NCBI GenBank assembly: GCA_017545325.1
Contig: JAFWOX010000075.1
Coordinates: forward strand, 1 to 13,487
Direction of reading: 5' to 3'
Length of the DNA stretch: 13,487 nucleotides
Origin: Oscillospiraceae bacterium
GTDB lineage: Bacteria > Bacillota_A > Clostridia > Oscillospirales > Oscillospiraceae
Below are positions 1 to 13,487 of this stretch, in pieces. Both the position numbers and the translations under genes were made by a program. Numbering within the stretch: position 1 is the stretch's first letter; the number at the start of each line of letters is the position of its first letter. The notes under the pieces are model-generated. The model worked only from the letters and a program-made list of their open reading frames with translations, was not told the DNA's origin and did not search any database.

Positions 1-826
1 CCTTGCCGGAGAAAGCGCCGCCCCCGTGGGGGGCATAGCCGCCGTAGGTATCCACGATGATCTTCCGGCCCGTAAGGCCGCTGTCCCCATGGGGGCCGCC
101 GATGACGAAGCGGCCGGTGGGGTTGACATAATACTTTGTATTCCCGTCCAGGAGCGCAGCGGGCACCACGGGCTCCACCACATGCCGGATCATATCCCGG
201 CGGATGGTATCCAGCTCCGCCTCGGGATCATGCTGGGTGGAGATGACGATGGTATCCACCCGGCGGGGCTTTCCGTCCTCCCCATACTCCACCGTCACCT
301 GGGTCTTCCCATCGGGCCGGAGGTAAGGCAGGGTGCCGTCCTTCCGCACCTTGGCCAGGCGCAGAGCCAGCTTATGGGCCAGGGAGATGGGCAGGGGCAT
401 GAGCTCCGGGGTCTCGGTGCAGGCATAGCCGAACATCATGCCTTGGTCCCCGGCGCCGTTCATCAGCTCATCCGTCTTCTCTCCCCGGATCTCCAGGGCC
501 CGGTCCACGCCCATGGCGATATCCGCGCTCTGCTCATGGATGCTGGTGAGGACGGCGCAGGTCTCCGCGTCGAACCCGTAGGCGGAGTCCGTATAGCCCA
601 CCTCCCGGATCACGTCCCGGGCCACCTTGCCGATATCCACATAGCAGTTGGTGGTGATCTCCCCCATGATGTAGATGACCCCGGTGGTGGCGGTGCATTC
701 GCAGGCCACGCGCCCGGTGGGGTCCTGGGCCAGGATGGCGTCCAGCACCGCATCAGAGATCTGGTCGCAAAGCTTATCGGGATGGCCCTCCGTTACGGAT
801 TCCGAGGTAAACAGCCGCTTGCTCAT
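1..826 (-). CDS. metK: S-adenosylmethionine synthase (methionine adenosyltransferase), 3' end cut by window edge
   Basis: Makes S-adenosylmethionine from methionine and ATP in the cytosol, the methyl donor that AhcY next door helps recycle. About 275 residues are visible from the ATG at 826, out of roughly 390-400 usual for the family. The N-terminus reads [18 protein letters not shown], with the conserved HPDK at residues 15-18. The family motif GAGDQG follows in mid-protein, and the sequence leaves the window within GGGAFSGK, the phosphate-binding P-loop-like motif of MetK. The start is supported by AAAGGAG a few bases upstream. The gene lies 21 bp after the ahcY stop with no terminator between, so it is probably cotranscribed and shares the SAM-I riboswitch control. 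Nothing looks broken; the missing C-terminus is only the window edge. Confidence 0.97.
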
Positions 827-847
827 TCTACTCTATCTCCTTTCATA

Positions 848-2089
848 TCAGACCTGCCAGCTATGGAGGTATTGATCCTGCTCCGGGGTGAGGACGTCGA
901 TGCTGAGGCCCATGGCCGCCAGCTTCACCCGTCCGATCTCCTCGTCGATCTCCTCCGGCACGGCATACAGCTTTTTTTCCAGATGATCCTGTTTGACGAT
1001 CCACTCCGCGGTAAGGGCCTGGACGGCGAAGGACATATCCATGATCTCCGCCGGGTGACCGTTGCCGCAGGCCAGGTTCACCAGTCTCCCCTCCCCCAGC
1101 ACGTTCAGGATCCGGCCGTCCGGGAGGGTGTAGCCCCGGATATTCTCCCGGCGCTCCTCCTCCTTCACGGCCATGGCCCGGAGTCCCGCCACATCCACCT
1201 CCACGTCGAAATGGCCGGCGTTGCACAGGATGGCGTTGTGCTTCATCCGGGCGAAATGGGCCGGTGTGATCACATCCCGGCAGCCGGTGACGGTGATGAA
1301 GATATCCCCCAGGGCCGCCGCCTGCTCCATGGGCATGACCCGGAAGCCCTGCATGGTGGCGTCCAGCGCCTTGAAGGGGTCCACCTCCGTGACGATCACG
1401 TCCGCCCCCAGCCCGGCGGCCCGCAGGGCGACGCCCTTGCCGCACCAGCCGTAGCCCGCCACCACCACGGTCTTCCCCGCCACGATGAGGTTGGTGGTAT
1501 GGAGGATGCCGTCCCACACGGACTGGCCGGTGCCGTACTTATTGTCATAATAGTGCTTGGCCTTGGCGTCGTTCACCGCCACCATGGGACAGGGAAGGCA
1601 GCCCTCCCGCTCCCGGGCCTTCAGCCGCAGGATGCCGGTGGTGGTCTCCTCGCAGCCCCCCAGGAGGCAGTCCCCATACTCCGCACAGTCCCCGCCGACT
1701 AGGTTCACCAGGTCACCCCCGTCGTCGATGAGGATATGGGGATGGCATTTCAGGGTCTCCCGCAGGAGACGGTCATAGCCCTCCCCGTCCACGCCGTGGA
1801 TGCCGAAGGTCTCCACCCCCAGGGAGGCGACGCCCGCCGCCACGTCATCCTGGGTGGACAGGGGGTTCGAGCCTGTTAGGAAGACCTCCGCCCCGCCCTG
1901 CTTCAGCACCAGGGCCAGATTCGCGGTCTTGGCCTCCAGATGCACGGAAACGGCGATGCGCTTCCCCGCAAAGGGCTTCTCCCGCGCAAAGCGGGCCTCG
2001 ATCCCCGAAAGGGCGGGCATAAAATCCCGCACCCAGCGGATCTTCTGCCGCCCGGCCTCCGCCAGGGCGGGATCCTTGATGATGCTCAT
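848..2089 (-). CDS. ahcY: Adenosylhomocysteinase (S-adenosyl-L-homocysteine hydrolase), short form
   Basis: Hydrolyses S-adenosylhomocysteine to adenosine and homocysteine with bound NAD, relieving product inhibition of methyltransferases. The protein is 413 aa. Visible motifs are SNPLSTQDDVAA (residues 74-85), EETTTG (147-152), VNDAKAK with the likely catalytic Lys178 and Asp182 (172-182), and the NAD-binding Rossmann motif GYGWCGKG (212-219). It lacks the KPDHYRY-type C-terminal tail of the long eukaryotic/proteobacterial enzymes and ends QYLHSWQV, as in the shorter archaeal/Thermotoga-like forms. In that group some enzymes prefer S-inosylhomocysteine, so the true substrate could differ (inference). 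The ATG at 2089 follows AAGGGGGAG. First gene after the SAM-I riboswitch, upstream of metK. Confidence 0.95.
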   Translation of the reverse strand: MSIIKDPALAEAGRQKIRWVRDFMPALSGIEARFAREKPFAGKRIAVSVHLEAKTANLALVLKQGGAEVFLTGSNPLSTQDDVAAGVASLGVETFGIHGVDGEGYDRLLRETLKCHPHILIDDGGDLVNLVGGDCAEYGDCLLGGCEETTTGILRLKAREREGCLPCPMVAVNDAKAKHYYDNKYGTGQSVWDGILHTTNLIVAGKTVVVAGYGWCGKGVALRAAGLGADVIVTEVDPFKALDATMQGFRVMPMEQAAALGDIFITVTGCRDVITPAHFARMKHNAILCNAGHFDVEVDVAGLRAMAVKEEERRENIRGYTLPDGRILNVLGEGRLVNLACGNGHPAEIMDMSFAVQALTAEWIVKQDHLEKKLYAVPEEIDEEIGRVKLAAMGLSIDVLTPEQDQYLHSWQV

Positions 2090-2106
2090 CTCTCTCCCCC
2101 TTCAGC

Positions 2107-2138
2107 AAAAAAAGCGCTCCGTCTCACCGACGGAGCGC
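2107..2138 (-). terminator. Intrinsic terminator of the SAM-I leader
   Basis: On the minus strand a perfect 10-bp stem (GCGCTCCGTC / GACGGAGCGC, plus-strand 2114-2138) with a 5-base loop is followed directly by seven T residues (2107-2113). It lies between the SAM-I aptamer and the ahcY ribosome binding site, as expected for the expression platform of a transcriptional off-switch. A competing antiterminator can be drawn: GGCGC, which overlaps the 3' strand of aptamer helix P1 (2154-2158), can pair with GCGCT, the first bases of the terminator (2134-2138), with an inner CAG/CTG helix. Confidence 0.93.
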
Positions 2139-2155
2139 GAACAGGCTTCTGCAGC

Positions 2156-2265
2156 GCCTTATCTTTCGTTTCGTCCGTCGGATTTGGCACCTTGCAGAGG
2201 GCGAAACCCCCATGCAGGTTGTCGTGGCTTCACAGGGCCGATCCCTCCGCCACTCTCGATAAGGC
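2156..2265 (-). promoter_or_regulatory. SAM-I riboswitch (S-box) aptamer upstream of ahcY-metK
   Basis: The minus strand carries the S-box landmarks in order. P1 is GCCTTATC (2258-2265) paired with GATAAGGC (2156-2163), 8 bp. The 5' core then reads CGAGAGTGGCGGAGGGAT, followed by GGCCCTGTGAAGCCACGACA, a helix around CATGGGGGTTTCGCCC, and the conserved AGGTGCCAAATCC core. In this class SAM binding stabilises P1 and lets the downstream terminator form. High SAM should therefore shut off ahcY and metK, and low SAM should allow read-through. The aptamer begins about 12 bases after the predicted transcription start. Confidence 0.95.
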
Positions 2266-2281
2266 TATTCATTTTGCCCAC

Positions 2282-2311
2282 AGTATACCCGCGGGGCGGC
2301 GGGCTTGTCAA
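2282..2311 (-). promoter_or_regulatory. Sigma-A promoter for the riboswitch-ahcY-metK transcript
   Basis: Minus-strand TTGACA (2306-2311) and TATACT (2282-2287) are separated by 18 bp. The expected start is near 2275, about 10-12 bases before the SAM-I aptamer. The -35 box lies 7 bp from the -35 box of the divergent metal-operon promoter, so polymerase footprints at the two promoters should overlap. Confidence 0.85.
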
Positions 2312-2318
2312 TACGCCC

Positions 2319-2347
2319 TTGACAGTTTTTTTGCCCTGGCCTATAAT
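2319..2347 (+). promoter_or_regulatory. Consensus sigma-A promoter of the metal-uptake operon
   Basis: TTGACA (2319-2324) and TATAAT (2342-2347), both perfect, are separated by the ideal 17 bp. The predicted start is near 2354, followed by the Fur-type box and the start codon of the regulator at 2409. Such a strong promoter fits a gene set normally held down by a repressor. Confidence 0.9.
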
Positions 2348-2355
2348 GGCATCAC

Positions 2356-2376
2356 AATTGAAACTGATTTTCATTT
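2356..2376 (+). promoter_or_regulatory. Fur-family operator (7-1-7 inverted repeat)
   Basis: TGAAACT-G-ATTTTCA (2359-2373) is a 7-1-7 inverted repeat with 6 of 7 matching pairs, extendable by two more A/T pairs on each side. This is the architecture of Fur/Zur/PerR boxes. It starts about 5 bases after the predicted transcription start, so a bound dimer would block initiation. The adjacent gene encodes a Fur-family protein, so autoregulation is the simple reading. Which metal is sensed cannot be read from the box. Confidence 0.7.
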
Positions 2377-2408
2377 TCATATTCTATCGAGACAAGGGAG
2401 CGGGGACC

Positions 2409-2813
2409 ATGGCGTATGAGACAAGACAGGGCAGGCTGCTGCAGGAATACCTGGAGGGCCTGGGCGGCCGGCATGTGAGCGTGCAGGAGATCGCGGAAAA
2501 CCTGCCGGAGAAGGTGGGGATCTCCACCATATACCGGCAGCTGGAAAAGCTGGAGGCCCGGGGGCTGGTGCGGAAATACATCAACGACGGGGAGCCCGCC
2601 TGCTACCAATATACCGAGGACGGCACCCCCGGCTGCCACGGACACCTCCACCTGAAATGCGGCGGATGCGGCCGGCTCATCCATGTGGAATGCGAGGAGT
2701 TCGACCGGCTGGCGGAGCATCTGCTCCGGGAGCACGGCTTCCGTACGGATCCCCTGCGCACCTCCGTCTACGGAGTCTGCCGGGACTGTCTGGCAAAGGA
2801 GCAGAAGGCATGA
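2409..2813 (+). CDS. Fur-family metal-responsive transcriptional repressor (Zur-like by context)
   Basis: A 134-aa DNA-binding regulator that should repress when loaded with its metal. The N-terminal winged helix (residues ~20-60) contains GISTIYRQLEKLEARGLV, the Fur recognition-helix region. The C-terminal half has the histidine cluster H77/H79/H81 (HGHLHLKC) and two CxxC pairs, C84/C87 and C124/C127, which form the structural zinc site of the family. The ATG at 2409 is chosen because AAGGGAG lies 8 bases upstream and the family N-terminus fits; longer in-frame extensions cross the promoter. The gene overlaps the next one by ATGA. Its place at the head of a zinc/manganese ABC operon suggests Zur, but Fur or PerR subtypes cannot be excluded from sequence alone. 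Confidence 0.92.
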   Translation: MAYETRQGRLLQEYLEGLGGRHVSVQEIAENLPEKVGISTIYRQLEKLEARGLVRKYINDGEPACYQYTEDGTPGCHGHLHLKCGGCGRLIHVECEEFDRLAEHLLREHGFRTDPLRTSVYGVCRDCLAKEQKA

Positions 2814-3739
2814 AGCGGATATCGCTGTTTTTCCTCCTTGGGATCCTGCTTCTCTACGGCTGCGCCGGGAAGCCCTCCGGGAGCGGGGATAAGCTGCAGG
2901 TCGCGGCGGCCGCCTTTCCGGAATATGATTTCGTCCGGGCGGTGGCGGGGGACCTGGCGGAGATCACCCTGCTCCTGCCGCCCGGGGCGGAGGCCCATTC
3001 CTACGAGCCCACCCCCCAGGATATCGCCCGCATCGGCTCCTGCCGGGTCTTCGTCTATGGCGGCGGGGAGAGCGACGTGTGGCTGGACCGGATCCTGGAC
3101 AGCGGGAACCGGGAGGGAAAGGCCATCCTCTCCCTGATGGACTGCTGCGCCCTCCGGGAGGAGGAGATCCAGGAGCACATGACCGCGGAGGAGGAAGAGG
3201 GGGAGGAGACGGAGTACGACGAACATGTCTGGACTTCCCCGGTGAACGTCATAGCCATCACGGAGGCGGTGCGGGACGCCCTGAGCGCGGCGGATCCGGA
3301 AAACGCCGCCGCCTATGCCGCCAACGCAGAGGACTATATCCGGCGGCTGCGGGAGCTGGATTCCGCCCTCCGGGAGCTGGTGAGGGGCTCCAGGCGGCAG
3401 CTGCTGGTCTTCGGGGACCGCTTCCCCTTTCTGTACTTCGTGCGGGAATACGGCCTCAGCTATGCCGCTGCCTTCCCCGGCTGCTCCAGCGGCACGGACG
3501 CGAACCCCGCCACCGTCGCCCACCTCATCGACCTGGTGAAGGCGGAGGAGATCCCCGTGGTCTTCCGCTGCGACCTGAGCGCCGGGAAGATCGCGGACAC
3601 CATCGCCGAAGCCGCCGGAGCCAGGGTCCTCACCCTCTGGTCCGGCCATACCGTCTCCCGGGAGGCCTTCCGGGCCGGGGAGACCTACCTGACCCTCTGG
3701 GCCAAGAACCTGGAGGCGCTGAAGGAGGCGCTGTACTGA
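2810..3739 (+). CDS. znuA: Metal ABC transporter substrate-binding lipoprotein (ZnuA/AdcA/TroA family)
   Basis: Captures a divalent metal, probably Zn2+, outside the membrane and hands it to the permease. The 309-aa protein begins with a lipoprotein signal peptide, hydrophobic residues 5-17 and lipobox LYGC with Cys18. Putative metal ligands are His63 (AHSYEPTP), His139 (DEHVW), Asp203 (GDRFPF, where many ZnuA proteins have His) and His280 (SGHTVS). Between the first two lies a strongly acidic stretch (residues 117-138) where zinc-specific proteins usually carry a His-rich loop. The ATG at 2810 overlaps the regulator's stop (ATGA), which settles the start; an in-frame upstream extension lies inside the regulator gene. 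Mn2+ is a possible alternative substrate. Confidence 0.9.
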   Translation: MKRISLFFLLGILLLYGCAGKPSGSGDKLQVAAAAFPEYDFVRAVAGDLAEITLLLPPGAEAHSYEPTPQDIARIGSCRVFVYGGGESDVWLDRILDSGNREGKAILSLMDCCALREEEIQEHMTAEEEEGEETEYDEHVWTSPVNVIAITEAVRDALSAADPENAAAYAANAEDYIRRLRELDSALRELVRGSRRQLLVFGDRFPFLYFVREYGLSYAAAFPGCSSGTDANPATVAHLIDLVKAEEIPVVFRCDLSAGKIADTIAEAAGARVLTLWSGHTVSREAFRAGETYLTLWAKNLEALKEALY

Positions 3740-3740
3740 A

Positions 3741-4430
3741 ATGTCGCTCATCGCCTGCAGGGACCTGTGCCTGGCCTACGAGGGCAAAACAGCGGTGCAG
3801 GACCTGACCTTTTCCGTGGAGCCCGGGGACTACCTCTGCATCGTGGGGGAGAACGGCTCCGGCAAAAGCACCCTCATCAAGGCCCTCCTGGGCCTGAAGA
3901 AGCCCAAAAGCGGCTCCATCACCTACGGGGACGGCCTCCGGCAGACGGAGGTGGGCTACCTGCCCCAGCAGACCCCGGCCCAGAAGGATTTCCCCGCCAG
4001 CGTGGGGGAGGTGGTCCTGTCCGGCTGCCGGGCAAAGCCCTTTTACCCCCGATCGGAGAAGCGCCGGGCGGCGGAATGCCTGGAAAAGCTGGGGCTGACC
4101 GGGCTGAAAAACGCCTGCTACCGGGATCTGAGCGGCGGGCAGCAGCAGCGGGTGCTCCTGGCCCGGGCCCTGTGCGCCACGCGAAAACTCCTCCTGCTGG
4201 ATGAACCCGTCACCGGCCTGGACCCGGTGATCAGCGCGGAGCTGTACCGGATCATCCAGGACCTGAACCGGGAGGGGGTCACCATCATCATGGTCTCCCA
4301 TGACGTGGACTGCGCCATCGAGCGGGCCAGGACCATTCTCCATCTGCGCACCGTTCCGCTCTTCTTCGGCCCGGCGGAGGCGTACGCCGACAGCGAGATC
4401 GGCCGGACCTTCATGGAAGGCCGGGACTGA
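3741..4430 (+). CDS. znuC: Metal ABC transporter ATP-binding protein (ZnuC-like)
   Basis: The cytosolic ATPase that powers metal import through the permease encoded next. The 229-aa length is normal. All motifs are intact: Walker A GENGSGKST (36-44), Q-loop Gln76 in YLPQQ, signature LSGGQQQR (130-137), Walker B LLLLDEP (150-156), and the switch His187 (SHD). It starts one base after the lipoprotein gene's stop, with AAGGAGG inside the end of that gene. Its intact motifs contrast with the degraded second ATPase further down the same operon. Confidence 0.93.
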   Translation: MSLIACRDLCLAYEGKTAVQDLTFSVEPGDYLCIVGENGSGKSTLIKALLGLKKPKSGSITYGDGLRQTEVGYLPQQTPAQKDFPASVGEVVLSGCRAKPFYPRSEKRRAAECLEKLGLTGLKNACYRDLSGGQQQRVLLARALCATRKLLLLDEPVTGLDPVISAELYRIIQDLNREGVTIIMVSHDVDCAIERARTILHLRTVPLFFGPAEAYADSEIGRTFMEGRD

Positions 4431-4445
4431 GAGAGGGGGACGGAC

Positions 4446-5270
4446 ATGCTGGAAACTCTGCGGGAAATGCTCTCCTATACCTTCCTCACCCGGGCCCTGC
4501 TGGTGGGCACCCTGGTGAGCCTCTGCGCCGCCCTCCTGGGGGTCAGCCTGGTGCTGAAGCGGTACAGCATGATCGGGGACGGGCTGAGCCACGTGGGCTT
4601 CGGGGCCCTGGCTGTCGCCACCGTTCTGAACGCCGCTCCCCTGGCCGTGGCCATCCCCGTGGTGGTGGCCGCCGCCTTCCTGCTCCTGCGCATCTCCTCC
4701 AGCGGGCGGATCAAGGGTGATGCGGCCATCGGGCTTCTCTCCACCTGCGCCCTGGCGGTGGGGGTCATCCTCATTTCCCTGTCCACGGGGATGAATACGG
4801 AGGTGAACAATTACCTCTTCGGCAGCATCCTCTCCATGTCCCGGGAGGACGTGATCCTCAGCGCCGCCATCGCCCTTACGGTGCTGATCCTGTTCATCCT
4901 CTTCTACAATCGGATCTTTGCCGTCACCTTCGACGAGACCTTCGCCCGGGCCACCGGCGTGCGGGTGGGAGCCTACAACGGCCTCATCGCCCTGCTCACC
5001 GCCCTCACCATCGTGGTGGGCATGCGGATGATGGGGAGCATGCTCATCTCCGGTCTGCTGATTTTTCCCGCTCTCAGCGCAATGCGCTTGTGCAAGCGCT
5101 TCCGCAGTGTTATAATTGTTGCGGCGATAATTTCCGTTTTCTGCTTCTTCCTGGGGACCCTGGTATCCTACCTGGGCGCCATCCCCACGGGGGCCAGCGT
5201 GATCTGCGCGAATATGATCGTCCTGCTGCTGCTCACCGCGGCGGGCAGGCTGAGGGAGAGGATAAAATGA
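4446..5270 (+). CDS. znuB: Metal ABC transporter permease (ZnuB-like, ABC-3 family)
   Basis: Membrane channel for the metal importer: 274 aa and strongly hydrophobic along its length, consistent with the usual 7-9 helices. Conserved ABC-3 segments are visible: GDGLSHVGFGALA near residue 40-52, and GSMLISGLLIFPALSAM near residue 200, just before the cytoplasmic coupling region. The ATG at 4446 is preceded by GAGAGGGGG. The stop overlaps the next start (ATGA, 5267-5270), so the downstream ABC-2 pair is translationally coupled. Codon use changes abruptly around 5105-5145 (ATA, ATT and GTT codons in an otherwise GC-ending gene), where a candidate internal promoter lies. Confidence 0.93.
   Translation: MLETLREMLSYTFLTRALLVGTLVSLCAALLGVSLVLKRYSMIGDGLSHVGFGALAVATVLNAAPLAVAIPVVVAAAFLLLRISSSGRIKGDAAIGLLSTCALAVGVILISLSTGMNTEVNNYLFGSILSMSREDVILSAAIALTVLILFILFYNRIFAVTFDETFARATGVRVGAYNGLIALLTALTIVVGMRMMGSMLISGLLIFPALSAMRLCKRFRSVIIVAAIISVFCFFLGTLVSYLGAIPTGASVICANMIVLLLLTAAGRLRERIK
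5088..5116 (+). promoter_or_regulatory. Candidate internal promoter in the 3' end of znuB
   Basis: A perfect TATAAT (5111-5116) carries an extended -10 TGT just upstream (5108-5110). Seventeen bases upstream of the TATAAT is TTGTGC (5088-5093), a weak -35 with 3 of 6 matches. It sits in a locally AT-rich patch with unusual codons and would start about 145 bases before the ABC-2 ATPase gene. It could give that pair metal-independent expression. The motif may be chance, since the amino acids here are hydrophobic residues with AT-rich codons available. Confidence 0.35.
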
Positions 5271-6019
5271 CGGACACCCTGTTTCGGGCAGCCGGTCTCA
5301 CCAAGCGCTATGGCGGCGCCGCCGCGCTGGATGGGCTGGATCTGCAGCTGGAGAGCGGGCGCATCTATGCCCTGCTGGGCGACCCGGGCAGCGGCAGGAG
5401 CACCCTGCTGCGCTGCGCCGCAGGCCTGGTCAAGCCGGATTCCGGCGAGGTTGAGCTCCTGGGGGAGACGGGCGAGGGCCTGTACGCCGCCCGGCGCCAG
5501 GTGGGGATGCTCATCGATTCCCCCGCTCTGTACCGGGATCTGAGCATCCGCAACAACCTGAAGCTCCAGGGCCGTATCCTGGGGGATCTGCCCAAGGGGC
5601 GGATCGGCAAGCTGATGAAGGCCCTGGCCATCACCCCGCGGGATACGGGCAACCGCACCGTCGGGGGCTGCCCCGCGGGACTGAAGATGAAATGCGCCAT
5701 CGCCATGGCTCTGCTCCCCTTCCCCCGCCTCCTGATGATGGACGAGGTTTTCGGAGGGCTGGATACGGACGACAGCGCCCTGTTCCGCGACCTGATCGCC
5801 GGAGAGATGGCGGAGCGGCCCATGGCCGTTCTGATCACCGGCCAGTTCTTCAGCGAGCTCTACCCCTTTGCGACGGATTACCTCCTGCTGGAGAAGGGCC
5901 GGATCCTCCGGAGCTACACCCGGGAGGCGCTGCAGGCCAGGATCCCGGAGGACCTGCACCGGACCCAGGAGCTGGAGGACGCCTTCAAGACCATCCGAAA
6001 GGAGGACCTTGGCGCATGA
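5267..6019 (+). CDS. ABC-2 type transporter ATP-binding protein (BcrA-like) with degenerate catalytic motifs
   Basis: A 250-aa ABC ATPase of the BcrA-type exporter subfamily, partner of the permease that follows. The fold is clear: N-terminal LTKRYGG, Walker A region GDPGSGRST (38-46), BcrA-like MLIDSPALYRDL (81-92), Walker B LLMMDEVFGGLD (155-166). Three key positions are altered. The Walker A lysine is Arg44, encoded by AGG. The signature LSxGxxQR reads CPAGLKMK (135-142). The H-loop histidine is Gln193 (ITGQFFSEL). ATP hydrolysis is therefore doubtful, though the reading frame and Walker B are intact. Its start overlaps the znuB stop and its stop overlaps the permease start, both by ATGA. 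Substrate unknown. Confidence 0.88.
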   Translation: MTDTLFRAAGLTKRYGGAAALDGLDLQLESGRIYALLGDPGSGRSTLLRCAAGLVKPDSGEVELLGETGEGLYAARRQVGMLIDSPALYRDLSIRNNLKLQGRILGDLPKGRIGKLMKALAITPRDTGNRTVGGCPAGLKMKCAIAMALLPFPRLLMMDEVFGGLDTDDSALFRDLIAGEMAERPMAVLITGQFFSELYPFATDYLLLEKGRILRSYTREALQARIPEDLHRTQELEDAFKTIRKEDLGA

Positions 6020-6885
6020 AGAGCGTATTTCGAGGCGAGCTGTTCCGCCTCAGCCGGAGCGCCGTGCTGCTGCTGGCGATAGTGGTGCTGCTGGTATGCG
6101 ACCTGTTCATCAGCTCCCGGAGCAAGGTGACCGAGACCAATATGTATGACCTGGCGGAGCTTCCCGGGGCGGGCACCTTCGTGAACTACTTTCAGGATAA
6201 CAAGACCAGCCCGGAAGGGGCCGCCGCCCGCATGCGTCTGCCCCGGGTGAAGAATCAGCCGGAGACGATCGTCCTGCGGGATGATCCGGCCACCGCGAAG
6301 TATGAGAATCTGATCGAGGTATACTGGGCCTGCTCCCCCTACTATTTCCGCTGGGTCCTGGCCAGCAACCAGGGACTCATGGTGATCCCCCTGATCTTCG
6401 CGGTGATGTTCCTGGCCCGGGACTTCCCCAACCGGGTGTTCAACGATTCCCTGTATATCGGCAAGCGGCGGCGGGAGATCTTCTGGGGCAAGACCCTGTT
6501 CTACTTCCTCCTGGCCTTCCTGATCTCCCTGGCGGGGATCCTGCTCCTGGCCCTGGTGTATGCCAGCGCCGTATTCCGGACCCTGCCGGCGGGCTATGTA
6601 TGGAGCCGCATCCTCCTCCATGCCTTTGTGGATACCTGCCTCATGGCGGTGCCCTTCCTCCTGGCCTTCCTCACCCGGAACCCGGTGGTCACGGGCATCC
6701 TCAGCGCCCTGTACGGGGTGCTCATCCGGTACACCGGCCTGATCTATCCCGCAAAGCTCAAGGCGGATATGGCCGCCTGGGAGCAGGGGACCTTCCCCCT
6801 GACCATGGCCCTGATCTGCCTGGCGGTCCTGGCGGTGTGCATCGCCGTTTCCCGCCTGCTGTTCGAGAAGCAGGATATCAAATAA
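6016..6885 (+). CDS. ABC-2 type transporter permease subunit
   Basis: A 289-aa integral membrane protein expected to pair with the preceding ATPase. Six hydrophobic segments are visible at about residues 15-33, 119-135, 161-183, 199-220, 222-240 and 261-283. A soluble loop of ~85 residues sits between the first and second. The segment after helix 2 (LARDFPNRVFNDSLYIGKRR) matches the pattern of ABC-2 permeases, in which this cytoplasmic stretch meets the ATPase. The ATG at 6016 overlaps the ATPase stop. Last gene of the metal operon, with a terminator 85 bases on. Such pairs often serve peptide or bacitracin resistance or lantibiotic immunity; here the role is unknown. Confidence 0.82.
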   Translation: MKSVFRGELFRLSRSAVLLLAIVVLLVCDLFISSRSKVTETNMYDLAELPGAGTFVNYFQDNKTSPEGAAARMRLPRVKNQPETIVLRDDPATAKYENLIEVYWACSPYYFRWVLASNQGLMVIPLIFAVMFLARDFPNRVFNDSLYIGKRRREIFWGKTLFYFLLAFLISLAGILLLALVYASAVFRTLPAGYVWSRILLHAFVDTCLMAVPFLLAFLTRNPVVTGILSALYGVLIRYTGLIYPAKLKADMAAWEQGTFPLTMALICLAVLAVCIAVSRLLFEKQDIK

Positions 6886-6893
6886 CGCTTCGC

Positions 6894-6934
6894 GTTTCGA
6901 CCGGGACCCGCTTCGTTGGGCTCCCAGTCGAAGC
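6894..6934. repeat. Long imperfect palindrome after the ABC-2 permease gene
   Basis: GTTTCGAC (6894-6901) pairs with GTCGAAGC (6927-6934) with one G-U pair. Inside, GGGACCC (6903-6909) pairs with GGGCTCCC (6918-6925) with one bulged base, closing a GCTTCGTT loop. No T-run follows on either strand, so it is not a standard terminator. The heptamer CGCTTCG recurs at 6886-6892 and 6909-6915. It could be an intergenic palindromic repeat, an mRNA-stabilising hairpin or part of a tandem termination region. Confidence 0.5.
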
Positions 6935-6969
6935 ATATCAAATTCCGCCGATACGCTTATCACGCGCAT

Positions 6970-7000
6970 GGGGGCAGCCAGACGGCTGCCCCCGAAGTTT
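6970..7000 (+). terminator. Terminator between the convergent metal operon and the anti-sigma gene
   Basis: A perfect 10-bp stem GGGGGCAGCC / GGCTGCCCCC (6970-6979 and 6984-6993) with an AGAC loop is followed by GAAGTTTTG. The T-run is short and offset, but the stem is very stable. It closes the plus-strand operon. Its position 19 bases after the anti-sigma stop codon means it may also act on the minus strand, where no T-run follows. Confidence 0.72.
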
Positions 7001-7011
7001 TGTCGGTTTTC

Positions 7012-8433
7012 CTATACTGTCCGCTCCAGGTCCAGGACGATGCGGTCCCCCGCGGGAGGCGTCCATACCAGGCGCAGGGCGGTGACCTTGCCGAAATCCC
7101 CGTCGAAGGCGGCGTTATTCGCGGATTCCCGGGTGAAATCCAGACTCAGCGCGAACACCCGCTCCCCGGTCTCGGCGTCGTAAAAGCTCGTTTTGCCGCC
7201 GGTCCAGCTTATTCCAAGCACCGTGCCGTCCACGCAAAGATATGGAGCGATATCCCTCTGGTCCAGGAGCCGGTCATAGGCCCCCTTCAGTACCGAGGCC
7301 TTAATCCAGGCCCGGAGGTGCAGCTCCTCTTCGTTCCCCCACAGGGCCAGACTCCGGGTCTCCAGACGGTAGACCCCGTTGTCCGCTGCGTATTCCACCT
7401 CCTCCGGGGTGCAGTCCGCAAAGAGGCTTTCCCGGAGCGCCTGCCGGTCTTCCGCCGAGAGCTCCGGAACCTGGGTCTGTTCCATAGGCTGCTGAGGCTG
7501 CTTCGGAATCGGTCCCGTCTCCAGGGGGTATTCCACCCCGTCGATACGCAGGGCGACGATGCCCCGGATATCTACCGGCTGCCGGAACCAGGCGCTCATC
7601 ACGGCCACATCCTGCCGCACCGGGTCCGGCCGAAGCCCCGGGGAGTCAAAGATCTTCTGCTCCTCCTCTCCTTCCCGGTAGACGTACTCCAGCTTCCCCC
7701 GGAAGGGCTTGCCATTGCCCAGCTTTTTCATGTCCATCCCTGCCACGTCCGCCCGAAGTCCGAAGGGGGAGAGAACGATGTTGGAATAAACGCCATCCCC
7801 CTGCTCTTTGGAGATTTTCGCCAGGCAGGGCTTCAGCTCCGCCTCCGCCTCCAGATAGCCGGGGTTAAAGGTCTCCCCGGTATCGTAGTTTTTCAGGCCG
7901 AAGAGACGGAACCGTATGCGCCCCGTGTTCATCTGGCTTTCGTTGTACCAGAGATAGACCCACCGGTTGGGGTTCCCCTGGCCCGGATCGTCCCCGTCCA
8001 GGGGCTGGCGGACACCGCCCCCCAATTTCACAGGATAGCCCTCTTCCGTCAGGGGGGTGATCACGTGATCCGTGTCATCCCAATCCTCCAGGTTCCCCCG
8101 GAGCAGCTCCACGCTGTACACCAGGTAGGTATTGTATCCGTCCGTCACCGCCTCATGGAGGGTGAGCCGCAGACCTTCGTTTTCCACGGTCACGCCGATA
8201 TGGTTTACATAATCTTCAAAGGTCTCATACTTCTCCCCGGGGAAAAGGCGTTCTAGGAAGCCCGTCTCCCTGGCCGCCACCCCCAGCAGGGCCAGGAGAG
8301 CGATCACCGCCGCCAGGATGAGAGCGGCGCGGACGGGGCGGCTGAGCTTTCTCTTCGCCGGGGGGCTGAAAACGGTCTTCGCGTAACGGTCCTCCGTCTC
8401 GCCCATAGCCATGGCCAGTTCCAAAGCCGTCAT
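7012..8433 (-). CDS. Membrane-anchored anti-sigma factor, DUF4179-like
   Basis: Probable partner and inhibitor of the ECF sigma factor encoded just upstream. The 473-aa protein has a short cytosolic N-terminus (~31 residues, containing MGETEDRYAKTVFSPP, typical of this Firmicute group) and one membrane helix at about 32-53. A large external part of ~420 residues follows. There is no HxxxCxxC zinc-binding anti-sigma motif. The external part begins GEKYETFEDYVNHIGVTVEN, which resembles DUF4179-type sensor regions, and has a Pro/Gln-rich linker near residue 310-325 (PKQPQQPMEQ) separating two beta-rich halves. The ATG at 8433 overlaps the sigma stop (ATGA) and follows GAAGGAGGG. The signal it senses cannot be read from sequence. 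The DUF assignment is from recognition, not a search. Confidence 0.75.
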   Translation of the reverse strand: MTALELAMAMGETEDRYAKTVFSPPAKRKLSRPVRAALILAAVIALLALLGVAARETGFLERLFPGEKYETFEDYVNHIGVTVENEGLRLTLHEAVTDGYNTYLVYSVELLRGNLEDWDDTDHVITPLTEEGYPVKLGGGVRQPLDGDDPGQGNPNRWVYLWYNESQMNTGRIRFRLFGLKNYDTGETFNPGYLEAEAELKPCLAKISKEQGDGVYSNIVLSPFGLRADVAGMDMKKLGNGKPFRGKLEYVYREGEEEQKIFDSPGLRPDPVRQDVAVMSAWFRQPVDIRGIVALRIDGVEYPLETGPIPKQPQQPMEQTQVPELSAEDRQALRESLFADCTPEEVEYAADNGVYRLETRSLALWGNEEELHLRAWIKASVLKGAYDRLLDQRDIAPYLCVDGTVLGISWTGGKTSFYDAETGERVFALSLDFTRESANNAAFDGDFGKVTALRLVWTPPAGDRIVLDLERTV

Positions 8434-8987
8434 AGGTCGATTCCCTCCTTCTGCAAATAGTTTCGCAGCCCTTCCCGCAGTTTGCCCAGCTGCTTATGGA
8501 TGCCGCTTACGGATCTTCCCCGCTGCTTCGCCAGGTTTTCCAGGGTCTCAAAAGCCAGGTATCGCCGCAGGAACAGGTCTCTCTCCCCCTCCGAGAGACT
8601 TTCCAAAAAGCCGTTCAGGGCACGGGTGAGCTCCCGGCGCTGCACCTCGTCCTCCAGGCTCTCTCCGGAGACCACCTCCTCCAGTTCCTCCAGGACCAGA
8701 GGGGTCTCTCCCGCATAGCGTTTTGCGGTGTGGTCCCGCCGCCACCGGTCCAGGGCCAGATTCCGGCAGATTTTTGCCAGGAAGGGTCCAAGGGGGTCCG
8801 GTCTCTTGGGGGGAATGGCGTTCCAGGTCCGGAACCAGGTATCTGAGACGCACTCCTCGCTGTCCTCCGGGACGGCCAATATCCTCAGGGCCACGCTCCG
8901 GCAGAGGGGGCCGTACTTTCCATCCGATTCCGTGATGGCCCGCTCGTCCCGGTCCCAGTAGAGCTGTACGATTTCTCTGTCTTCCAC
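8430..8987 (-). CDS. ECF-type RNA polymerase sigma factor
   Basis: Directs RNA polymerase to a small regulon when released from its membrane inhibitor. From the proposed GTG start the protein is 185 aa. Region 2 spans about residues 5-92, with EECVSDTWFRTWNAI and the FLAKICRNLALDRWRR region 2.4-like stretch. An acidic linker follows at 100-115, then region 4 at 118-180 with LSEGERDLFLRRYL and the helix-turn-helix ETLENLAKQRGRSVSGIHKQLGKLREGL. The GTG at 8987 is chosen because AGGAGG (8995-9000) sits 7 bases upstream and the conserved part begins there; the frame stays open to an ATG at 9074 but that extension is not sigma-like. Stop overlaps the anti-sigma start. Confidence 0.88.
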   Translation of the reverse strand: MEDREIVQLYWDRDERAITESDGKYGPLCRSVALRILAVPEDSEECVSDTWFRTWNAIPPKRPDPLGPFLAKICRNLALDRWRRDHTAKRYAGETPLVLEELEEVVSGESLEDEVQRRELTRALNGFLESLSEGERDLFLRRYLAFETLENLAKQRGRSVSGIHKQLGKLREGLRNYLQKEGIDL

Positions 8988-9000
8988 TTCCTCGCCTCCT
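8985..9000 (-). promoter_or_regulatory. Ribosome binding site deciding the sigma factor start (GTG)
   Basis: Minus-strand AGGAGG (8995-9000) precedes GTG (8985-8987) with 7 bases between, the best Shine-Dalgarno match in this leader. It favours the GTG over the in-frame ATG at 9074, which would add 29 low-complexity basic residues. Confidence 0.7.
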
Positions 9001-9049
9001 TCACCCTTGATAACGGCTTTTTCCCCTCTTTTTTCACGATTCCGGGTTT

Positions 9050-9151
9050 TCACAAAAAATCCGCCTTTCCGCATCCGCTGCCGGATCTGTGGAGGGGCAG
9101 GCCTTGTTTTCCCATGCGCTTTATGGTCCGGCTTTGATATCGCCTGCTCAT
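9050..9151 (-). CDS. Possible small leader ORF (33 aa) upstream of the sigma factor
   Basis: ATG at 9149-9151 is preceded by AAAGGA with 6 bases of spacing. It opens a 33-codon frame beginning MSRRYQSRTIKRMGKQ, strongly basic and ending TGA at 9050-9052. It lies 62 bases before the sigma factor GTG on the same strand. I recognise no family. It might be a regulatory leader peptide or simply a chance frame with a good ribosome site. Confidence 0.25.
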   Translation of the reverse strand: MSRRYQSRTIKRMGKQGLPLHRSGSGCGKADFL

Positions 9152-9214
9152 GTTTTTTCCTTTGTAAATATCCTACTCAAAAGCGGACCGAAAGGCAAGG
9201 GACAGCGGACATAC

Positions 9215-9237
9215 TGCGGGGATCCCGCACCCTTTTT
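9215..9237 (+). terminator. Weak terminator-like hairpin in the sigma/racemase-like intergenic region
   Basis: TGCGGG-GAT-CCCGCA (9215-9229) is followed by CCC and five T residues (9233-9237). The stem is short, but the plus-strand arrangement is terminator-like. No plus-strand gene ends here, so a short unannotated RNA or a relic would be needed to explain it. Confidence 0.3.
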
Positions 9238-9242
9238 CCGGC

Positions 9243-9274
9243 GGGGACGCTTCCGCGCGGCGTCCCCAGTTTTC
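9243..9274 (+). terminator. Second GC-rich hairpin with trailing T residues
   Basis: GGGGACGC (9243-9250) pairs with GCGTCCCC (9260-9267) around a 9-base loop, followed by AGTTTTCT. It stands 14-20 bases upstream of the -35 box of the next promoter. It could end a short plus-strand transcript or act as a structural or binding element; evidence for either is thin. Confidence 0.3.
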
Positions 9275-9287
9275 TCTTGCGCTTTCG

Positions 9288-9316
9288 TTGACTGAAACGC
9301 AAAAAACGCGTATACT
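9288..9316 (+). promoter_or_regulatory. Sigma-A promoter of the racemase-like/mutL operon
   Basis: TTGACT (9288-9293) and TATACT (9311-9316) with a 17-bp spacer, each one mismatch from consensus. The predicted start is near 9323, about 20-25 bases before the first codon. Confidence 0.82.
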
Positions 9317-9334
9317 AAAGGATACAGAAGAAAT

Positions 9335-9351
9335 AAGGGGGGATGAGCTTG
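9335..9351 (+). promoter_or_regulatory. Ribosome binding site with ambiguous start (ATG 9343 or TTG 9349)
   Basis: AAGGGGGG (9335-9342) abuts the ATG at 9343 with no spacer, but stands 6 bases from an in-frame TTG at 9349. By spacing the TTG is the better start, shortening the protein by two residues. The ATG is kept as the nominal start because it is the conventional codon. Confidence 0.5.
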
Positions 9352-10440
9352 CGTTCTCTGCAGATCGACAAAAACGGCCTGCGGTTCAACCTGAACGAGA
9401 TCCGGGCCAGAGCGGGCAGCGCAGACATCGTGGCGGATCTCAGCGGCGATGGCCAGGGGGTCGGCCTCCTGCGCATGGCCCGCTTCCTTCAGGAGGAGGG
9501 ACTGGGCAGCTTCGCCGTGAGCGAGCCCCAGGATGCGGCGCTTCTCCGCCGCAGCGGCTTTTCCGAGGAACGGATCCTGATGCTCCGCAGCATCACCAAC
9601 CAGGGGCAGATCAGCGAGCTTCTGGACGCGGGCGTGACCTTTACCCTGGGCTCCTATGAGGCGGGGATCGCGCTGAACGCCCTGGCGGGGGAGCGGCGCA
9701 CGGTGGCGGAGGCCCGGATCCGCATCGACTCCGGCCTGGGCCAGTACGGCTTTCTTCCCCGGGAGACGGACAAGATGCTCACCCTGTACCGGCAGATGCC
9801 GAATATCGCCATCACCGGCCTGTACACTCTGCCCGCCTCCACCAACATCCTCTCCGAGACCCAGAAGCAGGTTGAGGATTTCATGACCGCCGCCCGGACC
9901 CTCCAGAACCAGGGGGTGAATACCGGCATCCTGATGGCGCTGGATTCCGCCGCCCTGTTCCGGGGAGAATTCGGGGAGCAGAGCGCCGTCTGCGTCGGCC
10001 CCGCCCTGATCGGCAGGATCCCGGTAAAGGCTGGCTCCGGGCTCGCCAAGGTCGGGGTGCTGGAGGCCTCCCTGGAGGAACTGAACTGGCTGGATAAGGG
10101 CACCCGGATCGGCGCGGGCAAGGGCGTCACCCTGAAGAAGACCACCCGGGTCGCGGTGCTGGACGTGGGCTGGTTCAACGGCGTCGGCACCCTTCGGCCC
10201 GACGACCGGGTGGAGCCCATCCTGCTGGGCAGGGTGAAAGCCGGCCTGGCCAGGAAGACCGCCTTCTCCCCCGTATTCCGGGTCAACGGGAAAAGAGCCC
10301 GGGTCCTGGGGCAGGTGGGCATGACCGGCCTGGTCCTGGACGTGACCCGATGCAACCCCGTCCCCGGGGACACGGCCACCCTGGAGGTGGACCCCCGGTA
10401 TATCCGGGGGGTGCCCGTAAAGATGAGTGAAGGCGAATGA
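9343..10440 (+). CDS. Alanine racemase-like protein lacking the catalytic and PLP-binding residues
   Basis: 365 aa with the two-domain layout of alanine racemase. The fold-III barrel half includes EEGLGSFAVSEPQDAALLRRSG (49-72), RIDSGLGQYGF (127-137) and MALDSAALF (198-206). The C-terminal beta domain contains TTRVAVLDVGWFNG (267-280), VNGKRARVLGQVGM (314-327) and PGDTATLEV (341-349). Against the family pattern, the PLP lysine motif (VVKANAYGHG type) reads IVADLSGDGQG (29-39) with no lysine. The KVDTGMGRLG arginine and carbamylated lysine become Gln134 and Arg127. The FTHFA histidine is lost at YTLPA. The RPGIALYG arginine is Cys or Val near 217-218. The catalytic tyrosine of GYADGY is Trp277. 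Racemase activity is therefore unlikely; a ligand-binding or structural role is inferred. It overlaps mutL by ATGA. Confidence 0.82.
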   Translation: MSLRSLQIDKNGLRFNLNEIRARAGSADIVADLSGDGQGVGLLRMARFLQEEGLGSFAVSEPQDAALLRRSGFSEERILMLRSITNQGQISELLDAGVTFTLGSYEAGIALNALAGERRTVAEARIRIDSGLGQYGFLPRETDKMLTLYRQMPNIAITGLYTLPASTNILSETQKQVEDFMTAARTLQNQGVNTGILMALDSAALFRGEFGEQSAVCVGPALIGRIPVKAGSGLAKVGVLEASLEELNWLDKGTRIGAGKGVTLKKTTRVAVLDVGWFNGVGTLRPDDRVEPILLGRVKAGLARKTAFSPVFRVNGKRARVLGQVGMTGLVLDVTRCNPVPGDTATLEVDPRYIRGVPVKMSEGE

Positions 10441-12356
10441 ATATCATCCACAAGCTTGATCCCCATGTGGCGGATCTGATCGCCGCCGGAGAGGTGGTGG
10501 AGCGCCCCGCCTCCGTGGTGAAGGAGCTGCTGGAAAACAGCTTCGACGCGGGAGCCACCCAGGTGACGGTGGAGATCCAGCGGGGAGGCATGGGCCTCAT
10601 CCGGGTGACGGACAACGGCTGCGGCATGAGTCCGGAGGACGCGGGCACCGCCTTCCTCCGCCATGCCACCAGCAAGCTCCGGGACGCCCGGGGCCTGGAG
10701 GCCATCGGCACCCTGGGCTTCCGGGGAGAGGCGCTGGCGGCCATCGCCGCCGTCTCCCGGATCCAGCTCCTCACCCGGGAGCGGGGCGCCCAGGAGGGCA
10801 CCGTGCTCACCCTGGAGGCGGGAGAGGAGATCTCCCGCTCCCCCGCCGGTTGCCCGGAGGGGACCACCATCCTGGTTCGGGACCTGTTTTACAATACCCC
10901 CGCCCGGCTGAAATTCATGCGGAAGGATTCCGCAGAGGGGGCCGGCGTCACCGCCGCCGCCCTGAGCTGCGCCATGAGCCATCCCCACGTGGCGGTGCGG
11001 TATCTCCGGGAGGGGAAGGAGGAATTCCATACCCCGGGCAACGGCCGGCTGGACGCCGTCATCTATTCCCTCCTGGGGCGCGACTTTGCCAAAACCATGC
11101 TCCCCGCCCAGGGCTCCGGGGAGGGGATCACGGTGGAGGGGTACATCTGTCCCCCCGCAAACGCCCGGGGCAACCGGAAGCAGCAGTTTTTCTTCGTCAA
11201 CGGAAGATATGTGAAATCCATCCTGCTCCAGACCGCTCTGGAGCAGGCCTATAAGAACCAGCTCTTTACCGGGCGCTTCCCCGCCTGCGTCCTGTTCCTG
11301 GAGCTCCGGCGCAGCGCCGTGGACGTAAACGTTCACCCCGCAAAAACCGAGGTCCGCTTCCTGCAGGAGCGGCAGGTCTTCGACGCGGTGTACCGCAGCG
11401 TTCAGGCCGCCCTGCGAGGGGAGGCCGCCCAGCCGGAGCTGCATCTGCCGAAGCCGGAGGAGCCTGAGCCGGGAGCGGAGGCGGAGGTGCGGGAGGAACC
11501 CGCGCAGACCGCGAGGCCGAAGGCGGCGGTGCCCGTCACCGGACGGGTCTACAGCCGGGAGAGCGTACCCAAGGCGCCTCCGGCGGATATGCCGAAGATC
11601 GTGGAGCAGCTGGTTTTCCGCCAGCCCGCTGCGGAATACGGCCGGGAGGAGCCCCCCCGGGAGGAGGTCCCGGTGCACCGGGTGGATCTGACGGAGCCCC
11701 CCGCCCCGTCCAGGCCGCCGGAGCCCGCGCCGGCTCCGGAGAAGGAACCGGAGAAGGCGCCGGAGCCGCCCCGGGAAAAGCCCCTGCCCCCCTACCGCAT
11801 CCTGGGAGAGGCCTTCCGGGAATACGCGGTGGTGGAGACGGAGGAGGGACTTCTGCTCATCGACAAGCATGCCGCCCATGAGCGCATCCTCTTCGACCGG
11901 CTGAAGGCCGGGGAACGGGGACCCATGAGCCAGCTGCTTCTGGAACCCCAGGTGGTCAAGCCCGGGGCGGAGGACGCCGCCCTGCTTCTGGACCACCTCC
12001 CCCTGCTGGAGGAGCTGGGGCTGGAGGCGGAGGATTTTGGCGGCGGAGCATTGCTGGTGCGCCGTATGCCGGAGGGCGTCAGCCCGGAGGACTGCGCCGC
12101 CCTGCTGGAGGATACGGCGGAGGCCCTGCGCCTGGGCAGGCGGCCCGGCAGCCTGGGCCAGCGGGACGAGGTCCTGGCCTCCATGGCCTGCAAGGCGGCG
12201 GTGAAGGCGGGGATGGACGGGGAACTGTGGGAGCTGATCCCCGTGGTGGAGGCCGTCCTCTCCGGGCGGGTGAAATACTGCCCCCACGGCAGACCCGTCT
12301 CCATGCTCCTCACCAGGGCGCAGCTGGACAGGAATTTCAAGCGCACCGGCGGCTAA
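10437..12356 (+). CDS. mutL: DNA mismatch repair protein MutL (endonuclease type)
   Basis: Links mismatch recognition by MutS to strand incision. 639 aa. The N-terminal GHKL ATPase has KELLENSFDAGA (E30, N34), DNGCGM (59-64), HATSK (76-80), GFRGEAL (94-100) and DLFYNTPAR. A Pro/Glu/Ala-rich linker covers roughly residues 330-448. The C-terminal dimer/endonuclease domain has DKHAAHERILFD (476-487), ACKAAVKA (584-591) and CPHGRP (615-620), so it is the metal-dependent nicking type used in bacteria without MutH/Dam. The consensus DQHA(X)2E(X)4E is altered to K477 and D487. QLLLEP (499-504) fits the beta-clamp binding motif. The ATG at 10437 overlaps the preceding stop. mutS, the usual upstream neighbour, is not in the window. 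Confidence 0.97.
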   Translation: MNIIHKLDPHVADLIAAGEVVERPASVVKELLENSFDAGATQVTVEIQRGGMGLIRVTDNGCGMSPEDAGTAFLRHATSKLRDARGLEAIGTLGFRGEALAAIAAVSRIQLLTRERGAQEGTVLTLEAGEEISRSPAGCPEGTTILVRDLFYNTPARLKFMRKDSAEGAGVTAAALSCAMSHPHVAVRYLREGKEEFHTPGNGRLDAVIYSLLGRDFAKTMLPAQGSGEGITVEGYICPPANARGNRKQQFFFVNGRYVKSILLQTALEQAYKNQLFTGRFPACVLFLELRRSAVDVNVHPAKTEVRFLQERQVFDAVYRSVQAALRGEAAQPELHLPKPEEPEPGAEAEVREEPAQTARPKAAVPVTGRVYSRESVPKAPPADMPKIVEQLVFRQPAAEYGREEPPREEVPVHRVDLTEPPAPSRPPEPAPAPEKEPEKAPEPPREKPLPPYRILGEAFREYAVVETEEGLLLIDKHAAHERILFDRLKAGERGPMSQLLLEPQVVKPGAEDAALLLDHLPLLEELGLEAEDFGGGALLVRRMPEGVSPEDCAALLEDTAEALRLGRRPGSLGQRDEVLASMACKAAVKAGMDGELWELIPVVEAVLSGRVKYCPHGRPVSMLLTRAQLDRNFKRTGG

Positions 12357-12392
12357 GGCCGGGATACTTTGCCGAAGCAGGTGATCGAATTG

Positions 12393-13235
12393 ATGATGGA
12401 CGACAGCTTCTTCTGGTTCAGGCGGAACCGGATCTCCATCCCCGGGGTGCGGGGAGAGCATCTTTTCCTGCATATCACGGATACCCATATCAACGCCGCG
12501 GACGAAGAGAGTTCTCCCGAGGAGCGGGCGGAATCGGAAAAGCAGGAGACCATGTGGGCCTCCTTCAAGGAGAAATTCGCCCGGGGGCAGCTGCCCTTCT
12601 CCGTGGGGAACGACGAGCCCTACGGGGATCCCCAGCGGATCACCACCCTGGAGGCCTTTGAGAAGCAGCTCGCCCTGGCGGAGGAGCTGAAGCCGGAGGC
12701 CCTGCTCCTCTCCGGGGACAACCTGGAGCGCATGCACGGCGCCGGGGAACGGTACCTGAGGCGGAAGCTCGCCGCCTACAGCGGGAAATTCCTCTGCGTT
12801 CCCGGGAACCATGAGGCGCCGGCCTGCGACGGTTGCTGGGCGCCCGGGGTTCGCACCCTGGATTTCGACGGCTTCCGGATCGCCGCGGTGGACAACAGCC
12901 GGAAGACCGTCTCCCGGGAGGATTTGGACGCCCTCCATGCTCTCTGCGATGAGGGCACGCCCCTGATCATCCTCTGCCATGTGCCCATTTGTACCCTCTG
13001 CTGCAAGGAGGAGCTCCATCGGGTGATGGACTATTTCTACATCGACGAGGAAACGGCGGACGAGAACGGGAAGGAATTCGTGGAACTCTGCGAAAAGAAC
13101 GACACCGTCAAGGCCGTGCTCTGCGGCCATGTTCACGGGTATCACGCCACGGAGCTGGTCCCCGGCAAACCCCAGATCATCGGGTCACAGGGGATGGCCG
13201 GAGCCGTACATCTCTTTACGGTGGCCGGAGAATAG
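12393..13235 (+). CDS. Calcineurin-like metallophosphoesterase
   Basis: A two-metal phosphoesterase of about 280 aa; substrate unknown. The motif series is complete: ITDTHIN (D30, H32), SGDN (D109), GNHE (N139, H140), CHVP (H196) and GHVHGYH (H246, H248). Between the first two motifs is an unusually long charged insertion (~75 residues, 35-105). No signal peptide or membrane helix, so probably cytosolic. The ATG at 12393 is preferred because AGGTGAT lies about 8 bases upstream; the frame is open to a TTG at 12369 with only a weak site. It starts 36 bases after mutL and is probably cotranscribed. A link to DNA repair is not shown by sequence; it could be a general cyclic-nucleotide or phosphoprotein phosphatase. 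Confidence 0.85.
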   Translation: MMDDSFFWFRRNRISIPGVRGEHLFLHITDTHINAADEESSPEERAESEKQETMWASFKEKFARGQLPFSVGNDEPYGDPQRITTLEAFEKQLALAEELKPEALLLSGDNLERMHGAGERYLRRKLAAYSGKFLCVPGNHEAPACDGCWAPGVRTLDFDGFRIAAVDNSRKTVSREDLDALHALCDEGTPLIILCHVPICTLCCKEELHRVMDYFYIDEETADENGKEFVELCEKNDTVKAVLCGHVHGYHATELVPGKPQIIGSQGMAGAVHLFTVAGE

Positions 13236-13251
13236 GCCCGGAATCGATTTG

Positions 13252-13286
13252 GGGGGTGGAGCCGTTTGGCTCCACCCCCTGGTTTA
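13252..13286 (+). terminator. Terminator after the mutL operon
   Basis: A perfect 12-bp stem GGGGGTGGAGCC / GGCTCCACCCCC (13252-13263 and 13268-13279) with a GTTT loop, then TGGTTTAT. It follows the phosphoesterase stop by 16 bases and lies 15 bases beyond the stop of the convergent ABC gene. It could therefore serve both, though the minus side has no T-run. Confidence 0.8.
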
Positions 13287-13294
13287 TCCTTCGC

Positions 13295-13487
13295 TCATTC
13301 CGCCGCAAGTTCTCCGTCCTTCATGCGCAGGACCAGGTCGGCCGCTTCTGCTACCTCCGGGTCGTGGGTCACCACGATAACGCAGCGGCCCTCCTCATGG
13401 GCCAGGCGGCGGAGGATCTCCATGACGATCTTCGTATTCTCCCCGTCCAGGTTGCCGGTGGGTTCGTCCGCCAGGAGGACAGGGGCC
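13295..13487 (-). CDS. ABC transporter ATP-binding protein (MacB/LolD-type), C-terminal fragment cut by window edge
   Basis: The last 63 residues of an ABC ATPase, with the start beyond the right edge. Walker B and D-loop read VLLADEPTGNLD, a form characteristic of the MacB/LolD/FtsE-type subfamily. The H-loop is VIVVTHDPEVAEAAD, and the protein ends DGELAAE. Such ATPases work with FtsX/MacB-like permeases in peptide sensing, antimicrobial resistance or lipoprotein transport. No partner gene follows its stop, so any permease must lie upstream, outside the window. Confidence 0.92.
   Translation of the reverse strand, partial: APVLLADEPTGNLDGENTKIVMEILRRLAHEEGRCVIVVTHDPEVAEAADLVLRMKDGELAAE

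Follow-up and report, generated by a model that had tools for sequence, protein, structure and literature searches.

What does a protein do that has the fold of alanine racemase (Alr) but not the lysine that holds the enzyme's pyridoxal 5′-phosphate (PLP)? The question is raised by a 13,487-nucleotide (nt) stretch of an Oscillospiraceae bacterium genome (assembly GCA_017545325.1, contig JAFWOX010000075.1, positions 1 to 13,487 of the forward strand; hereafter the window), in which an uninterrupted open reading frame (ORF) of 365 codons at 9343-10440 on the + strand encodes such a gut-bacterium relative of alanine racemase immediately upstream of mutL. An earlier note on this DNA had described the product as an Alr paralogue stripped of its catalytic residues and maintained as a pseudoenzyme. 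Since the lysine has been lost, and since such proteins are retained next to a DNA-repair gene in related bacteria, the window protein probably has a new, non-racemase job.

The single window chain contains both racemase domains of Pfam, Ala_racemase_N (E 1.6e-30) and Ala_racemase_C (E 2.4e-8), each above its gathering score. Structure prediction gave a complete two-domain alanine-racemase fold, and comparison with known structures placed it in the fold type III two-domain architecture along its entire length, in agreement with the fold landmarks reported by the earlier note. With the Alr equivalog TIGR00492, the protein scored 106 bits, below the 168-bit cut-off. Catalytic sites were mapped by alignment with 36 Alr proteins, using G. 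stearothermophilus numbering and residue roles, anchored on motifs; identity to the compared Alr proteins was 21-27%. No lysine stands at the Schiff-base position, where Lys39 is replaced by Ser34 (codon 9442-9444, + strand), and the second catalytic base, Tyr265, is replaced by Trp277 (codon 10171-10173, + strand). Lys129, Arg136, His166 and Arg219 have become Arg127, Gln134, Leu163 and Cys217, respectively, and Tyr43, Asn203, Cys311 and Asp313 have become Gln38, Asp201, Gly326 and Thr328. At the Tyr354 column, every family row among those listed has a gap. Judged by this alignment, the window protein would be unable to form the PLP internal aldimine or to racemise alanine by the Alr mechanism. 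At least three lysine-free database proteins (P0028, P0050 and P0052) likewise have serine at the PLP-lysine position and bear the source name alanine racemase, a name which cannot be right for the known chemistry.

Relatives were collected by a protein search, in which the 7998 candidates sharing most words were scored, and by a genome scan. The former gave 66 matches, comprising 60 family members (36-100% identity) and six ordinary Alr (25-28%); the latter contributed 80 loci, of 396 encoding relatives, with record titles naming Oscillospiraceae, Clostridiales/Clostridia, Ruminococcaceae, Papillibacter, Candidatus Alloscillospira, Sporobacter and one Bacillota bacterium. One carrier is a named strain, Sporobacter termitidis DSM 10068 (L016, in the sister clade defined below). 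When 394 genomes of this strain's order were searched with the family alignment, matches at 1e-20 were obtained in 368, ordinary Alr included. From the order-wide matches listed, 30 loci and then 80 were fetched, leaving out 21 more (E ≤ 2.3e-56) and weaker ones, and a total of 191 loci, the window included, was scored. The lysine position was occupied by Lys in 94 of these, Ser in 63, Thr in 32, and Asn and Ala in one each. Because metagenome assemblies make up most of the genomes, an absence may reflect a gap.

The origin of the lysine loss was examined with a tree of 113 rows rooted on canonical Alr, from which rows at least 72% identical to a kept row had been dropped. Three chimeric or fragmentary entries (P0020, P0045 and P0060) were omitted here and from the FastTree and conservation analyses below. 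The family to which the window protein belongs, termed Alr2, separated from canonical Alr (107 rows versus six Alr) with a Shimodaira-Hasegawa-like approximate likelihood ratio test (SH-aLRT) value of 100, and 41 of the 42 non-lysine rows formed one clade, nested among lysine-bearing rows, with a value of 93. FastTree, run without 14 active-site columns, returned a lysine-free clade (support 0.714) of 152 rows, 118 with Ser, 33 with Thr and one with Asn; outside it were 95 rows with Lys and one with Ala. These placements indicate that the lysine-free clade derives from a mostly femX-linked paralogue family, Alr2, that retains the PLP lysine. Three derived sub-clades were distinguished within it: the window clade, the sister clade and a third group. 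L200, with Ala at the lysine position, falls apart from the lysine-free clade in the 113-row tree, and a common loss including it was rejected (approximately unbiased test, p-AU 0.035, for a group named after the tree had been seen); it appears to represent a second, independent loss of the PLP lysine in the Alr2 family.

Conservation of the former active site was compared across these groups, with the clades defined without the tested columns and rows kept below 85% identity (90% for the third group). Lysine-type Alr2 proteins have Lys39 in 84 of 85 rows, and Tyr43, Arg136, His166 and Arg219 in nearly all; position 265 is variable among them, being Tyr in 44 of 85. The Lys39 position is Ser, Thr or Asn in all 152 rows of the lysine-free clade. 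Within the 29 rows of the window clade, Ser34 and Trp277 are each present in 29, Gln38 and Asp201 in 28 and Asn279 in 26, and these five columns lie at the 92nd-100th percentile of conservation. Taken together, the pocket columns are more conserved than other columns in this clade (p 0.0015). Only at columns 34, 38 and 201 do the window clade and the lysine family each conserve a different residue (at least 0.9 and at least 0.75, respectively). The Arg219 position has become Cys or Leu in 26 of the 29 window-clade rows and the Arg136 position Gln in 21. The sister clade (44 rows) keeps Arg136 in 40, Arg219 in 43 and Tyr265 in 40 but has replaced Lys39 and His166 in every row; thus the sub-clades differ in their degree of loss. 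Relocation of the Schiff-base lysine was rejected for the clade as a whole on lysine-column conservation: no clear substitute for Lys39 was found, the top column, that of Lys144, reaching 0.89 within the window clade and 0.84 when all 150 lysine-free rows were counted. The sister clade by itself has lysine throughout (100%) at the columns matching window residues 4 and 355, and in 0.96 of rows at that of residue 252, a pattern that the window clade lacks. These patterns argue that the cofactor pocket of the window clade has been rebuilt, not relaxed.

The gene is also maintained under purifying selection. The ratio of nonsynonymous to synonymous substitution rates (dN/dS, Nei-Gojobori) was 0.148-0.210 between the window and its three nearest loci and 0.008-0.254 in 18 of 20 pairs, the other two being saturated, and it was below that of mutL in 12 of 17 comparable pairs. 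All 92 of the 92 lysine-free loci have open frames of 348 amino acids or more. With the complete predicted fold and the conserved replacement residues, these values uphold the earlier view of an intact frame and a maintained pseudoenzyme.

Gene neighbourhoods were counted in loci of different genomes with a simple ORF caller, leaving out L111, L112, L114, L115 and L117, whose genomes were already counted; neighbours were named from one Pfam-checked representative per cluster and otherwise by sequence recognition. In the window, mutL (10437-12356, + strand, identified by Pfam) has a 4-nt overlap (ATGA) at its start with the pseudoenzyme stop codon. It is the next gene in all 14 window-clade loci, the window included, although these represent a few related arrangements rather than 14 independent events. 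In the sister clade mutL is next in 58 of 64 loci and in second place in three more, the remaining three ending at a contig end. Outside the lysine-free clade mutL is next in none of 94 loci (93 Lys, 1 Ala), and femX lies just upstream in 79 of these versus none of 92 lysine-free loci. The sister-clade genes sit in a larger island. Of its 64 loci, 48 have miaB head-to-head, no more than two genes away, 50 have miaA among the next three genes downstream and 23 have mutS, whose place a RACo-type gene takes in others; hfq, yggS, sepF, divIVA and ileS often lie beyond. The window clade has miaB adjacent or close in four of 14 loci and miaA within three genes in none. Since it keeps mutL but mostly not miaB, mutS or miaA, the mutL link outlasts the others. 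Where the third group could be seen with wider flanks (12 loci), miaB, mutS and mutL were upstream on the opposite strand in nine, and the pseudoenzyme gene leads a dtd-containing unit in eight of 14 loci (8/12 re-fetched). The dtd gene, of the D-Tyr-tRNA deacylase family, is downstream in L226, L228-L231 and L233-L235. A D-amino-acid or aminoacyl-tRNA theme might join femX and dtd, which is no more than suggestive; a metallo-β-lactamase-fold gene next to dtd may be a common, independent pairing. Lysine-type Alr2 loci (L078-L080 and those among L117-L220) are often followed by Orn/Lys/Arg-decarboxylase-like, cyclic-di-AMP receptor, holB-like and PSP1-domain genes.

The reading that we favour, with a probability of about 0.6, is that this racemase-fold protein, having no Schiff-base lysine, acts non-catalytically. 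Through Ser34, Gln38, Asp201, Trp277 and Asn279 its old cofactor pocket would have been rebuilt around another small ligand; the protein, probably a dimer as in Alr, would be made with MutL from one message and would read the putative ligand in the role of a regulator or adaptor. Ligand binding or scaffolding, which the earlier note offered as inference, has the same standing here. Several observations weigh against this reading. The note had all expected catalytic residues gone, which holds for the six sites it named, but phosphate-side Ser204 (Ser202) and Gly221 (Gly219) are retained, as is Met312 (Met327), so PLP or a phosphate compound may still be bound weakly and non-covalently. The Lys129, His166 and Arg219 positions rank only at the 28th, 47th and 60th percentiles in the window clade, and strong constraint thus does not extend to the entire pocket. 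In five pairs, all involving the window or L003 with another of the four nearest loci, dN/dS exceeds that of mutL. Support for the lysine-free clade is moderate in both trees. No third-group locus (0/14) has mutL directly downstream, and mutS is close by in only 23 of 64 sister-clade and four of 14 window-clade loci. A narrower version, in which a former PLP enzyme of cell-wall (femX) context lost its cofactor, was recruited beside mutL in Oscillospiraceae and their kin, senses a small molecule by means of the rebuilt pocket and sets MutL activity or level, appears unlikely; the sensed molecule may in that case be an amino acid, a nucleotide or an aminoacyl compound.

The position beside mutL could instead be purely historical, the protein binding a ligand or acting as a scaffold with no tie to mismatch repair, and we consider this a serious possibility at somewhat less than even odds. 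It would account for the unrelated housekeeping genes of the sister-clade island (miaA, hfq, yggS, sepF, divIVA and ileS), for the fact that mutS is close in no more than 27 of the 78 loci in the two clades linked to mutL, and for the dtd-containing units of the third group; against it, the window-clade pair with mutL persists in 14 of 14 loci despite the scarcity of miaB and the absence of miaA. Mixed dimers, in which the protein alters the activity of canonical Alr or of a lysine-retaining Alr2, seem improbable. Alr active sites are made up by two subunits, and of the 37 genomes searched, 35 have a canonical Alr above the cut-off (32/34 carrying a lysine-free locus and 3/3 carrying a Lys-type one; the other two gave one partial match and one no match). 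However, identity to the compared Alr is low and the Tyr354 segment is absent. A second Alr2-type protein (at least 300 bits), sought for 50 of 77 candidate loci, was absent in 46 of 50 lysine-free genomes and present in four, lysine-type in each case. Lys-type Alr2 therefore cannot be a general partner, and duplication beside it in every genome was likewise rejected.

A new enzyme, working in the rebuilt pocket either without PLP or with PLP held non-covalently, would be consistent with the near-invariance of Ser34, Gln38 and Trp277 in the window clade and with the Arg136, Arg219 and Tyr265 kept by the sister clade. It is nonetheless doubtful, given the loss of both arginines from most window-clade rows; the conservation scan found no His column above 0.8, and a catalytic set is not recognisable. 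Decay or assembly error is hardly credible: although three entries are short or chimeric (P0020, with a second Pfam domain; P0045, 228 amino acids; P0060, 215 amino acids), purifying selection and the open frames of all lysine-free loci already contradict it, and decay of the pseudoenzyme was rejected on these grounds. P0020, which comes from a contig of 1021 bases and has AMMECR1 as an additional domain, is possibly a chimeric assembly.

The gene's own promoter, as the earlier note had it, is a sigma-70-like TTGACT-17-TATACT at 9288-9316 (+ strand), with 10 of 12 matches; the mean for shuffled sequence was 0.2. The true start of the pseudoenzyme may be TTG at 9349 instead of ATG at 9343, because TTG agrees with homologue N-termini and is well spaced from an upstream Shine-Dalgarno-like AAGGGGGG (9335-9342, + strand, read from the sequence), which ends 6 nt before TTG and abuts ATG. 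The C-terminal domain contains a basic, amphipathic insert (10183-10281, + strand; residues about 281-313), common to Alr2 relatives, whose median net charge is +3 to +4 in both lysine-type and lysine-free members. It is shorter in the canonical Alr compared, of which the pattern matched only 5/30 sequences, cut differently from the family rows. The region is of low confidence in the structure model; as a guess, it could contact membrane or nucleic acid. Elsewhere in the window, 7012-9074 (− strand) encodes a divergent sigma-70 region 2 protein and then a DUF4179 protein, at the place that miaB takes in most sister-clade loci, and 12369-13235 (+ strand), downstream of mutL, encodes a calcineurin-like phosphoesterase, at the place of miaA in most of them.

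Compared with canonical Alr (TIGR00492; C. difficile 4lus; the VanTg serine racemase 4ecl), the window protein has the same two-domain fold type III and both Pfam domains but lacks the PLP lysine, Tyr265, Arg219 and the Tyr354 segment, and falls short of the equivalog cut-off. The nearest family on the tree, lysine-retaining Alr2, which itself looks uncharacterised, has a similar basic insert and likewise misses the Tyr354 segment (four Lys-type rows in the alignment); it keeps the PLP lysine and the femX neighbour, whereas the window protein, from a derived sub-clade, has neither. Antizyme inhibitor, a fold type III pseudoenzyme derived from ornithine decarboxylase, has also kept its fold and lost catalysis; it may serve as an analogy, though it is eukaryotic and of another subfamily, and nothing at the window points to antizyme. 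For YggS/PLPBP, PLP-binding proteins with a fold type III barrel, no enzyme activity is known (PMC9605639). They are single-domain and PLP-bound, while the window protein adds the Alr C-terminal domain and has no PLP lysine; the YggS-like gene of the sister-clade island was named by sequence, its Pfam match being Ala_racemase_N alone. No description of the lysine-free family turned up among the open-access papers listed, which is weak evidence of absence, and passages of PMC6522883, on B. subtilis PLP proteins, note no lysine-free Alr-like protein.

The family thus offers a clean, tree-placed case of a PLP enzyme family giving rise to a conserved PLP-free protein while its lysine-retaining relatives are still living, and the three derived sub-clades show active-site loss to different degrees. 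The conserved mutL neighbour is open to direct genetic testing, for instance in S. termitidis DSM 10068; if the pseudoenzyme does set MutL activity or level, it would provide a metabolic input into mismatch repair.
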